In this document: piece after piece, positions 52,658 to 56,818 of the stretch
Numbering within the stretch: the first letter of the stretch is position 1
How the letters are laid out: the number at the start of each line of letters is the position of its first letter
From: Nostocoides jenkinsii Ben 74
Lineage (GTDB): Bacteria; Actinomycetota; Actinomycetes; Actinomycetales; Dermatophilaceae
Assembly (NCBI RefSeq): GCF_001046875.1
Contig: NZ_HF571038.1
Location: 1,686,139-1,750,138 of the forward strand
Length of the DNA stretch: 64,000 bases
Direction of reading: 5' to 3'
Position numbers and translations under genes: made by a program
Notes under the pieces: generated by a model
Databases searched by the model: none
Told to the model about the DNA's origin: nothing
The model's input: only the letters and a program-made list of their open reading frames with translations

Positions 52658-52753
52658 GAGCGTCCTCCCTTCGTCGGCGGTCCTGGCCGGCAGTCCTTGC
52701 CTGCAGTCGTTGTCGGCAGTCGTTGTCGGCGGTCGATCCCCCGGTCCGGCTCG

Positions 52754-52799
52754 CCAGCACTCGACCTCGGTGCTGGCACTCGACTCGGGAGACTGCCAA
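52754..52799. promoter_or_regulatory. CIRCE-like sites upstream of hrcA
   Basis: CTGGCACTC-N9-GACTGCCAA (52773-52799) has the 9-9-9 form of CIRCE with one asymmetric base. CCAGCAC-N9-GTGCTGG (52754-52776) overlaps it. Both lie about 100-145 bases before hrcA and between it and the divergent DUF3097 gene. Short 13-base direct repeats (GCAGTCGTTGTCG) follow at about 52700-52730. Confidence 0.6.
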
Positions 52800-52853
52800 T
52801 TCTACGTCGCGCGCCGGGGACGTCCGGCGCAACCGGTCGCATACGCTGCCGCG

Positions 52854-53720
52854 GTGAGCAGCCGCTACGGATCCGACCCGCTTGCCGGCGACTGGCGCCG
52901 CCCGCGCGCCGCCGAGGTGGCCACGGTCCCGGCGGAGCTGGGACTGGTGGTCGAGGACCGCGAGACGGGCTGGACCGGCGCGGTGCTGCGGGTCGAGCCA
53001 ATTGGTGGGCGCCAGGTGGTCGTGCTGGAGGACCGACACGGCCGGGTGCGCTCGTTCCCGCTCGGACCCGGCTTCCTCATCGACGGTCGCCCGGTGGTGC
53101 TGACCAGGGCGAACGCCGCGACGGCAGCCGCCGGACCCGTGCGCTCGGCCAGCGGATCGCGGGCGGTGGTCGGGGCGAAGGCGCGCGTCGCGGCCGCCTC
53201 CCGGCTCTTCGTCGAAGGCACCCACGATGCCGAACTCGTGGAGAAGGTGTGGGGCCACGACCTGCGCGTCGAGGGCGTCGTCGTGGAGGTCCTCCACGGC
53301 GTGGACGACCTCGCCGCGGCCCTGGCGGATTTCGGGCCGACCCGGACCGCGCGGGCGGGGGTATTGGTCGATCACCTCGTCCCCGGCTCCAAGGAGTCCC
53401 GGATCGTCGCTGCCGCGAGCGCGCGCTTCCCCGACGACACCGTGCTGGTGGTCGGCCACCCCTATGTCGACGTCTGGCAAGCCGTCCGCCCGCAGCGCGT
53501 AGGGCTGACCGCCTGGCCGACCATCTCCCGGGACGTCGAGTGGAAGGCGGGGATCGCCGCCGCGCTGGGGCTCCCCCATACGACGACCGAGGATCTGGGG
53601 TTGGCGTGGAAACAGATCCTCGGGCGCGTGCGGACGTATGCCGATCTGGAGCCCGCCTTCTCCGGTCGCGTCGAGGAGTTGATCGACTTCATGACGGTCC
53701 CCCCTCCGGTCCGACCCTGA
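52854..53720 (+). CDS. DUF3097 protein
   Basis: 288 residues from GTG 52854. The N-terminal barrel-like part is followed by a TOPRIM-like region: VEGTHDAELVEKVWG and VLVDHLVPGSKE carry the acidic residues. Conserved in actinobacteria beside hrcA/hemW, with no proven role. May bind or process nucleic acid (inference). Confidence 0.8.
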   Translation: MSSRYGSDPLAGDWRRPRAAEVATVPAELGLVVEDRETGWTGAVLRVEPIGGRQVVVLEDRHGRVRSFPLGPGFLIDGRPVVLTRANAATAAAGPVRSASGSRAVVGAKARVAAASRLFVEGTHDAELVEKVWGHDLRVEGVVVEVLHGVDDLAAALADFGPTRTARAGVLVDHLVPGSKESRIVAAASARFPDDTVLVVGHPYVDVWQAVRPQRVGLTAWPTISRDVEWKAGIAAALGLPHTTTEDLGLAWKQILGRVRTYADLEPAFSGRVEELIDFMTVPPPVRP

Positions 53721-54350: not shown

Positions 54351-55586
54351 TCAGGCCGCCAGGCCCAGTAGCCGGCGGACGACCGTGTCCGCGAGCAGCC
54401 GCCCTCGACGAGTCAGCACGACTCGTCGAGGGCGGTCGGCGTCTGCGGGGACGTCCGTCACGAGACCGTCCTGCACCAGCGCCGGTATGGCCGTGACCCC
54501 CGCCCCGTCGAGGCGCGCCACCGGGAGGCCGCTCGCCAGGCGGATGCCGAGGAGGACTTCCTCGTCATAGCGCTGGTCGGGGGTGAGGGTCTCCCGCGCG
54601 GCGGCCGGGGAAACCCCGCGGGCCAGCCGATCGGCATACGCCCCAGGGTGTTTCACATTCCACCAACGGATGCCGCCGACGTGGCTGTGGGCACCGGGGC
54701 CGAACCCCCACCAGTCTCCGCCCTCCCAGTAGGCCAGGTTGTGCCGGCACTCTTTGCCGGGTCGAGACCAGTTGCTGACCTCGTACCAGTCGTAGCCGGC
54801 TTGGGTGAGCAGGGTGTCGGCGAGTTCGTACTTGTCGGCCTCGTCATCGTCGTTGGGCATAGTGACCCGGCCGCGGCGAACCTGGGCTGCGAGTTTCGTG
54901 CCCTCCTCCACGACGAGGGCGTAGGCCGAGATGTGGTCGGGTTCGAGGGCGATGGCCGCGTCGAGGCTCGTGCGCCAATCCGCGAGGGACTCCCCTGGGG
55001 TGCCGTAGATGAGGTCGACGGAGACGTCGAGTCGGGCGGCCTTGGCGGCAGCGACCGCGGCAGCGACATTGGCCGGGTCGTGGGTGCGCTCGAGGGTGGC
55101 CAGCACGTGCGGGACCGCGGACTGCATGCCGAAGCTGATCCGGGTGAACCCGCCGGATCGCAACTGCGCCAACGATTCTGGGGTGACGGAGTCGGGATTG
55201 GCCTCGGTCGTCACCTCGATGTCGTCGGTCGGCTGCCAGCGGTCAGTGATGCGGGCTAGGTGGGCGGCGAGATGGTCGCTCGGCAGCAGGGTCGGGGTGC
55301 CGCCGCCGACGAAGACGCTCGTGAGCCTCGGCGTGCCGGCGGGCGCGAGGACGGCGGCGGCCAGGTCCACCTCGCGGGCTAGTGCGACCTCGTAGGTTGC
55401 CGTGGCTCCGGCCGGCCCGGTCAGTTCGCCGGGGGCGTAGGTGTTGAAGTCGCAATAGCCGCACCGGACCCGACAAAAAGGCACATGGACGTATGCCGCG
55501 ATCCCCGCAACGCCGCCGAGCGCGGCGGTTGGGAGCCGGCCATCCGCGGGGGCGGGGTCACCGTCGGGGAGGGCGCTGGGCGGCAT
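54351..55586 (-). CDS. hemW: Radical SAM heme chaperone HemW
   Basis: 411 residues from ATG 55586; the frame further up lacks family features. Radical SAM motif CRVRCGYCDFN, GGGTPTLLP and SFGMQS. Binds heme and delivers it to proteins; formerly called HemN-like. Full length. Confidence 0.9.
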   Translation of the reverse strand: MPPSALPDGDPAPADGRLPTAALGGVAGIAAYVHVPFCRVRCGYCDFNTYAPGELTGPAGATATYEVALAREVDLAAAVLAPAGTPRLTSVFVGGGTPTLLPSDHLAAHLARITDRWQPTDDIEVTTEANPDSVTPESLAQLRSGGFTRISFGMQSAVPHVLATLERTHDPANVAAAVAAAKAARLDVSVDLIYGTPGESLADWRTSLDAAIALEPDHISAYALVVEEGTKLAAQVRRGRVTMPNDDDEADKYELADTLLTQAGYDWYEVSNWSRPGKECRHNLAYWEGGDWWGFGPGAHSHVGGIRWWNVKHPGAYADRLARGVSPAAARETLTPDQRYDEEVLLGIRLASGLPVARLDGAGVTAIPALVQDGLVTDVPADADRPRRVVLTRRGRLLADTVVRRLLGLAA

Positions 55587-55727
55587 ACGGGAATGATGCC
55601 AGCGACCTCCGGAGGCCACGAACTCCAGGTGGCGCCGCGGGTCGTCACGTGAGTAACACCGGACGCGGCGTGTCCAGCACGACACGCCGTTCGCGGAAAA
55701 ATTCTGACATTGGGTGGGCGCTAAGCG
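55587..55727. other. Divergent region upstream of hemW
   Basis: 141 bases without a gene between hemW and the RNA locus. A dyad GGCGTGTC-N6-GACACGCC (55667-55688) is the only clear structure; it may be an operator or a short terminator. Confidence 0.4.
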
Positions 55728-55756
55728 TTGCCGGAGGTGGGTTCTCGGGGTAGGAA
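55728..55756 (+). promoter_or_regulatory. Candidate promoter of the structured RNA
   Basis: -35 TTGCCG (55728-55733), 17-base spacer, -10 TAGGAA (55751-55756). Would start an RNA near 55763. Visual match only. Confidence 0.45.
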
Positions 55757-55762
55757 TAACCC

Positions 55763-56031
55763 ATCGCAAACGCCTCCGGGCGGGAGCGAAGGACAGTCCT
55801 TCGGGATTGCCCGATCGATGCGGAACTTGTTCTGCATCACCCGATTCCAGCGCTTCGGCGCCGGAATCGTGATCGAGCTTCGGCTCGATTCTGTCTCGGC
55901 TTCGGCCGATGACTCCGATCGCGACCTCGGTCGCTATCACCGTACCGGCTTCGGCTGGTGCATCGACCTCGACTTCGGTCGAGATCGACGAGGGCCTCGG
56001 AAACTCATACTTTCCGAGGCCCTCACCTTTT
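55763..56031 (+). ncRNA. Probable structured RNA of serial UUCG hairpins
   Basis: About 270 bases with no convincing protein. At least seven successive hairpins: GATGCGGAA/TTCTGCATC with loop CTTG (55817-55838), CGATTCC..GGAATCG (55842-55869), ATCGAGC/GCTCGAT (55872-55889), TCGGC/GCCGA (55896-55909), GCGAC/GTCGC (55921-55934), CCGGC/GCTGG (55945-55958) and CTCGAC/GTCGAG (55968-55983). Five have the very stable C-UUCG-G loop, which is only favourable when the plus strand is transcribed. It ends in a strong terminator before the phosphatase gene, and no plus-strand gene lies upstream to supply a transcript. Not a family I recognise. Confidence 0.6.
55990..56031 (+). terminator. Rho-independent terminator of the structured RNA
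   Basis: GAGGGCCTCGGAAA pairs perfectly with 56011-56024 (14 bases) around CTCATAC, followed by ACCTTTT. The T tail lies on the plus strand only. It is the only hairpin in the window with a good T tract. Confidence 0.85.
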
Positions 56032-56050: not shown

Positions 56051-56818
56051 ATGGAGCGGTGGATCGACCTGGCCGGCGTGGTGAACATGCGCGATGTCGG
56101 GGGCCTGCCGACCGCCGACGGCGGTGTGGTGCGCTCCCGCCGCCTGATTCGCTCGGACAACCTGCAGGATCTTAGCCCGGGGTCGGTGCGCTATTTGATG
56201 GCGGATCTCGGCGTGTCGGACGTCGTGGATCTGCGCTCGCACAAGGAAGTTCACGCCACGGGCCACGGGCCGCTGCGCGCGACGTCATTGCGGCATCACC
56301 ACTACAGCTTCATCCGGGAGGAGGCGCCGGGCATCGATGCGCCTGGCTTTCTGGCCGCAGACCCGGCGGGGGTGGCGCGTCCGAAGGACCCGAACTTTTG
56401 GAGTCAGCACTATCGCGGCTACCTGACCGGCCGGCCGGACTCGGTGTCGGGCGCGCTCTCGGTCATCGCGACCGCCGCCGGCGCGACCGTGGTGCACTGC
56501 GCCGCCGGCAAGGACCGCACCGGGACGGTCGTCGGCATTGCGTTGGCCGTTGCGGGGGTGCCTCAGGAGGAGATCATCGCCGACTATGTGCTGTCGGGCG
56601 AGCGCATCCAGCGCATCATGGACCGGCTGATGGACCGCGATCCCTATCGAGAGTCGTTGCGGGACAAGCCGATCGCCGAGCAGGTTCCGGTAGCCAGCGC
56701 GATGGAAGCACTGCTGGGACTGCTGACGGACGACTTCGGCGGGGCTGCGGGGTGGCTGCGCGCCCAGGGCTGGTCCACGGAGCAGGTGGCTGGTTTGCGC
56801 GCTAAGTTGCGCGGCTGA
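56051..56818 (+). CDS. Tyrosine-protein phosphatase
   Basis: 255 residues of the dual-specificity-like bacterial PTP family: P-loop HCAAGKDRTG (Cys-x5-Arg) and the early VVDLRSHKE. Start 20 bases after the terminator, so it needs its own promoter or is made by read-through. Substrate unknown; relatives act on phosphotyrosine or phosphoinositides. Confidence 0.85.
   Translation: MERWIDLAGVVNMRDVGGLPTADGGVVRSRRLIRSDNLQDLSPGSVRYLMADLGVSDVVDLRSHKEVHATGHGPLRATSLRHHHYSFIREEAPGIDAPGFLAADPAGVARPKDPNFWSQHYRGYLTGRPDSVSGALSVIATAAGATVVHCAAGKDRTGTVVGIALAVAGVPQEEIIADYVLSGERIQRIMDRLMDRDPYRESLRDKPIAEQVPVASAMEALLGLLTDDFGGAAGWLRAQGWSTEQVAGLRAKLRG

Follow-up and report, generated by a model that had tools for sequence, protein, structure and literature searches.

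The hairpin array at positions 55,728–56,031 of the window, the 64,000-nt stretch of Nostocoides jenkinsii Ben 74 DNA analyzed here, is well supported by sequence comparison as a free-standing gene for a structured noncoding RNA. Comparison of related genomes shows conservation of the structure at the RNA level, a promoter and terminator belonging to the element itself, an operator phased to this promoter, and independence of the neighboring genes, and it marks the locus as a real, regulated RNA that is so far undescribed. Both the covariation and the operator phasing were drawn from these related genomes. We tentatively favor, at somewhat under even probability, a role for the array as a trans-acting, protein-binding structured RNA that is switched on by a dedicated activator. 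Relative to the preliminary description of this DNA, which had proposed a stand-alone RNA gene of serial hairpins, the new elements are an upstream palindrome, a second RNA sharing this operator, a short form of the hairpin RNA, and variability of its middle hairpins.

The comparative structure comprises nine serial hairpins followed by a terminator hairpin (Table 1), two more than the minimum of seven initially counted. The loops of hairpins 1–9 are, in order, UCCG, UUCG, CUUG, UUCG, UUCG, UUCG, CUCG, UUCG, and UUCG, with UUCG capping six of the nine and UCCG, CUCG, and CUUG the remainder. The folding energy is −163 kcal/mol, compared with −118 ± 5 for shuffled sequences (z −8.5; reached by 0 of 100 shuffles). 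Six strict YNMG-capped hairpins, defined by at least four Watson-Crick pairs, are found in the 304 nt at 55,728–56,031, while elsewhere in the window there are at most two per 304 nt, counting both strands; the density of such hairpins is thus threefold that of any other place in the window. A stable fold is also predicted for the minus strand, as for any inverted-repeat array, and the plus strand is the one that carries the promoter, the U-tail, and the conservation. Tandem-repeat origin of the hairpins was ruled out because no tandem repeat was detected within the array, and a dispersed (REP-like) repeat was ruled out because the whole element matched only itself in a DNA search of its own genome.

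The −35 and −10 elements are separated by a 17-bp spacer and form a candidate promoter of the sigma-A type; the start originally assigned to the element is the first base of the −35 hexamer. This plus-strand promoter had been predicted from the letters alone, as had the divergent hemW gene on the left and a plus-strand terminator, and all three were recovered. A simple consensus scan did not report the 14-pair terminator, since the scan demands five T residues and the tail is ACCUUUU. A 118-codon reading frame had been judged an unlikely protein, which agrees with its interruption by stops in two of the three genus mates and with the lack of a Pfam match; a small protein gene was rejected because the frame is not kept in relatives. 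At the gathering threshold, no Rfam 15 family matched the hairpin RNA, and weaker matches were at chance level, none of them relevant. The Rfam search and the covariation analysis described below had been proposed as checks on the stand-alone gene, and neither refuted it. At another position of the window (53297–53345, plus strand), a match to the Guanidine-II riboswitch scored 32.3 bits against a threshold of 32; it sits within an apparent coding frame (336 aa, 52710–53720) and is probably false.

Table 1. Predicted features of the hairpin RNA locus and its neighbors, in window coordinates.
Feature	Position	Strand	Evidence or remark
hemW, divergent neighbor on left (context only)	54351–55586	−	Radical_SAM match
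Operator palindrome GGCGTGTC-CAGCAC-GACACGCC, probable activator site	55667–55688	.	Center 73 bp upstream of −10
−35 element TTGCCG	55728–55733	+	Conserved position; homologues TTG-N3, spacer 17–18 bp
−10 element TAGGAA	55751–55756	+	TAGAAA/TAGACA in relatives
Predicted noncoding RNA, ~269 nt	55763–56031	+	Fold, homology, covariation; transcription start estimated 6–8 nt past −10
Hairpin 1 (UCCG)	55764–55789	+	4 bp on either side of a 3x3 purine-rich internal loop; conserved signature of 5′ end
Hairpin 2 (UUCG)	55794–55809	+	Stem aligns poorly; relatives have other hairpins at that place
Hairpin 3 (CUUG)	55817–55838	+	Three pairs changed on both sides within genus
Hairpin 4 (UUCG)	55843–55868	+	Comparative structure
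Hairpin 5 (UUCG)	55872–55889	+	Comparative structure; missing from two genus mates
Hairpin 6 (UUCG)	55893–55913	+	Comparative structure; missing from two genus mates
Hairpin 7 (CUCG)	55917–55938	+	Comparative structure
Hairpin 8 (UUCG)	55942–55961	+	Comparative structure
Hairpin 9 (UUCG)	55963–55988	+	Comparative structure
Intrinsic terminator, 14-bp stem, loop CUCAUAC, tail ACCUUUU	55990–56031	+	Near-invariant in homologues
Tyrosine phosphatase family gene (Y_phosphatase3), downstream context	56051–56818	+	Domain match; start 20 bp past RNA gene's end

Homologues were detected both by DNA search and by a covariance model, R1, which was built from an alignment (A1) of 21 three-hairpin members. 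Among 188 genomes of the Dermatophilaceae/Intrasporangiaceae-type family, R1 identified homologues in 47, representing 14 genera (E < 1e-9); in one of the 47, G144, the match is to a related terminator that belongs to a different array. The DNA search matched all three genus mates and many further genomes of the family, mostly in the terminator and the last hairpins. In a sample of the order outside the family, the best R1 match had an E value of 2.5e-5, and the loci examined proved not to be homologues but other terminators, most of them GC-rich. The homologous loci share a common plan, consisting of the palindrome, the promoter, hairpin 1, one to several further hairpins, and the terminator. 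The usual RNA is ~92 nt long and contains two hairpins plus the terminator, i.e., three hairpins, and the window carries an expanded form of ~269 nt.

Within A1, 15 of the 29 base pairs have changed on both sides at least once. Pairing is retained in 95.9% of the alignment cells (0 of 500 shuffles), and 54 cells are compensatory, compared with 15 in the shuffles; sliding the pairing abolishes the signal. For the expanded form, seven pairs have changed on both sides within the window's genus; shuffles give 3.5, and 6 of 500 attain seven. The 5′ hairpin and the terminator are kept, while the hairpins between them differ in count and sequence even among members of the window's genus, some species of which are without whole hairpins. 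A characteristic geometry of hairpin 1 is retained in 38 of 45 homologous RNAs, with stem letters that differ between genera: a YNMG loop, four to five pairs, a purine-rich mismatch that is mostly symmetric and often A-A or AA/GA, and a further three to six pairs. Nearly all hairpin loops of the relatives are UUCG or CUCG, and YNMG loops make up ~87% (98/113) of the predicted hairpin loops when terminators are left out.

Several loci depart from this simple arrangement. The hairpin RNA gene is tandemly duplicated in L095 (1499–1808), where the second copy is without the operator, and in L105 (538–1754), where both copies carry it. Another hairpin array with the same terminator loop is present at a separate locus in g43 (L148:1367–1600; L164), and in L148 this array includes a tandem unit of 42 bp. 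In the Serinicoccus group, at L195, L198, L200, L202 (g41), L012, and L022, the RNA body resembles a larger multibranch fold (GGTCGCAAG...CTTGCGCACC) and not simple hairpins.

The probable activator site is a 22-bp palindrome, GGCGTGTC-N6-GACACGCC, which has a single copy in the genome of 3.81 Mb (none for the reversed control) and is present in 99 of the 188 family genomes, nearly always in one or two copies (reversed control, near zero). In the sample of the order outside the family it is rarer per genome set and has several copies in some genomes, so that its near-uniqueness holds for the Dermatophilaceae/Intrasporangiaceae-type family. At ~40 hairpin RNA loci, the distance from the operator center to the −10 element is 63–65, 73–75.5, or 84.5–85.5 bp, with none in between, and these classes differ by one helical turn. 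The phase vector is 0.97 at the genus level, which is improbable under random spacing; for the three spacing clusters taken alone p = 0.008, and these represent only a few independent evolutionary events. Such helical phasing is expected of an activator that touches RNA polymerase. The palindrome contains two occurrences of GACAC, the core sequence of WhiA sites (PMC3781837), although the WhiA site is asymmetric and is bound by a monomer, and WhiA is only a lead as the regulator.

The same palindrome was also found in other genomes 111–125 bp from the −10 element of a different promoter, TTGACA-N17-TANNNT. The transcript of this promoter is predicted to form a long hairpin whose central bubble is conserved (AGUAGAMAAC opposite GGYCCCAAMG), and it appears to follow the plan of the 6S and Ms1 RNAs. 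A model of this putative 6S/Ms1-like RNA (R2, mainly sequence) detected it in ~100 family genomes, nearly always in one copy each (e.g., L165:1676–1754, plus strand; L197:1254–1346, minus strand; L207:1295–1375, minus strand), and gave single, weaker matches to other families of the order. Where its surroundings were checked, this RNA is in most cases located upstream of lnt. No Rfam match was obtained for it. By description, the long hairpin with a conserved bubble reported for Ms1 (PMC4191392) fits this second RNA, while the published gene neighborhood, typically beside a HAD hydrolase gene (PMC9130861), does not. A second inverted repeat, TGACCTGC...GCAGGTCA, is located between the operator and the TTGACA promoter of the 6S-like RNA in L165, L197, and L203.

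The shared operator raises the possibility that the array encodes an RNA polymerase-associated RNA, acting as a partner of the 6S/Ms1-like RNA. The operator also precedes the 6S/Ms1-like RNA in many relatives, and in five genomes (G106, G109, G110, G117, and G119) it occurs exactly twice, once at each RNA type. Polymerase binding is also established for other actinobacterial RNAs, Ms1 and CoRP (PMC4191392, PMC11077062). The array, however, has neither the central bubble nor a 6S-like fold, the 6S/Ms1-like RNA was not detected in the window's genus, upstream of lnt included, and common regulation does not imply a common target. We regard such a partnership as unlikely.

A second alternative is that the element acts in cis, either controlling hemW or serving as leader, attenuator, or insulator in the space that separates hemW from the phosphatase gene. 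The array does lie between these two genes, ending shortly before the phosphatase start, and its usual neighbor is hemW, which adjoined the RNA gene at the loci checked in g1, g13, g30, g40, and g43. A strong terminator nevertheless precedes the phosphatase gene, and the surroundings are not constant. In g9, g18, g19, g20, and g50 the RNA gene is found behind thrS or another gene, and in several of these genera it precedes a HIT-protein gene, the promoter and terminator being of the same kind as here; at the g41 loci examined, including Serinicoccus, it is on the opposite side of hemW, beside a DUF4870 gene. An mRNA leader or attenuator of the downstream gene was rejected because this gene varies between genera, and we regard a cis-acting role in general as quite unlikely. 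The promoter, hairpins, and terminator move as one unit together with the operator or operator half-sites, which argues for an independent, trans-acting RNA, and the variety of neighbors (hemW, thrS, HIT-protein gene) indicates that this unit is free-standing and not a leader.

A trans-acting RNA could also function by base pairing with mRNAs, using the terminator loop as a seed. Among homologues the terminator stem varies with compensation while its loop, CUCAUAC, remains constant. This loop also recurs on hairpins with unrelated stems (L215:1480–1515; L156; L111; L202), and in the window's own genome one copy caps an ordinary terminator that follows a response-regulator gene, so that it looks like a general terminator loop; its standing as a family-specific seed was downgraded accordingly. 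Outside this loop the RNA offers few single-stranded bases: the predicted folds place ~70% of bases in pairs, which leaves few single-stranded stretches for pairing with mRNA. Seed pairing through CUCAUAC is thus quite improbable. It is very unlikely that the act of transcription or the operator is what matters, the RNA body being a disposable stable end product, for although the operator, promoter, and terminator are conserved better than the middle and hairpins are freely gained and lost, selection on RNA shape is shown by compensatory changes in each of the first two hairpins and by the mismatch that hairpin 1 has retained.

For the trans-acting, protein-binding RNA that we favor, a dimeric activator would bind the operator and switch on an RNA that is almost fully base-paired and probably nuclease-resistant. 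This RNA would act in trans, using hairpin 1 to bind an RNA-binding protein and titrate (or carry) it, and the extra hairpins in the window's genus may add binding sites or lifetime. Protein binding is the best guess because nearly all of the RNA is paired, a mismatch hairpin is conserved, the number of hairpins is variable, and the activator site has few targets. Loops of the UNCG type are also simply stable folds and need not be protein sites. Since the middle hairpins vary within the window's genus, a protein that used them as binding sites would have to read shape and not sequence.

In outline, this working would resemble that of CsrB or RsmY/RsmZ, which are likewise free-standing multi-hairpin RNAs with variable hairpin number and terminators of their own. 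A further likeness is a palindromic upstream activating site common to few RNAs, as the GacA site that precedes rsmX, rsmY, and rsmZ (PMC2375449); the palindrome of the array is present in one copy here and is phased to the promoter, and its sequence is unrelated to the GacA site. The array loops are of the YNMG type, and GGA is absent from all hairpin loops in the window's RNA (UCCG, UUCG, CUUG, CUCG, CUCAUAC), on which ground membership in the CsrB/RsmZ family was rejected. We know of no CsrA/RsmA protein from Actinobacteria.

With 6S and Ms1, the array shares its nature as a structured actinobacterial RNA with a sigma-A-type promoter and, in relatives, an operator common with the 6S/Ms1-like RNA. 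It differs in consisting of serial small hairpins without a long hairpin and central bubble, and in adjoining hemW and the phosphatase gene instead of the HAD hydrolase gene that usually neighbors Ms1 (PMC9130861); fold, gene neighbors, and lack of an Rfam match ruled it out as a 6S/Ms1 RNA. CoRP is similarly a lineage-restricted structured actinobacterial RNA, differing in its length of 516 nt, its location between tRNA genes, and its close homologues only in Corynebacterium (PMC11077062).

A broader proposal, which we consider rather doubtful, is that a dedicated activator governs an RNA-only regulon composed of the hairpin RNA and the 6S/Ms1-like RNA, with the hairpin RNA titrating a hairpin-binding protein, as an actinobacterial counterpart of GacA-RsmY/RsmZ assembled from unrelated parts. 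Structured regulatory RNAs of the Micrococcales have hardly been charted, and for this array there is a covariance model, the relatives span at least 14 genera, and the short form, at 92 nt, lends itself readily to testing. The rarity of the operator means that the regulator and its regulon can be found directly. Should the RNA bind a protein or be tied to RNA polymerase, it would provide a lineage without known CsrA with an additional layer of global regulation.
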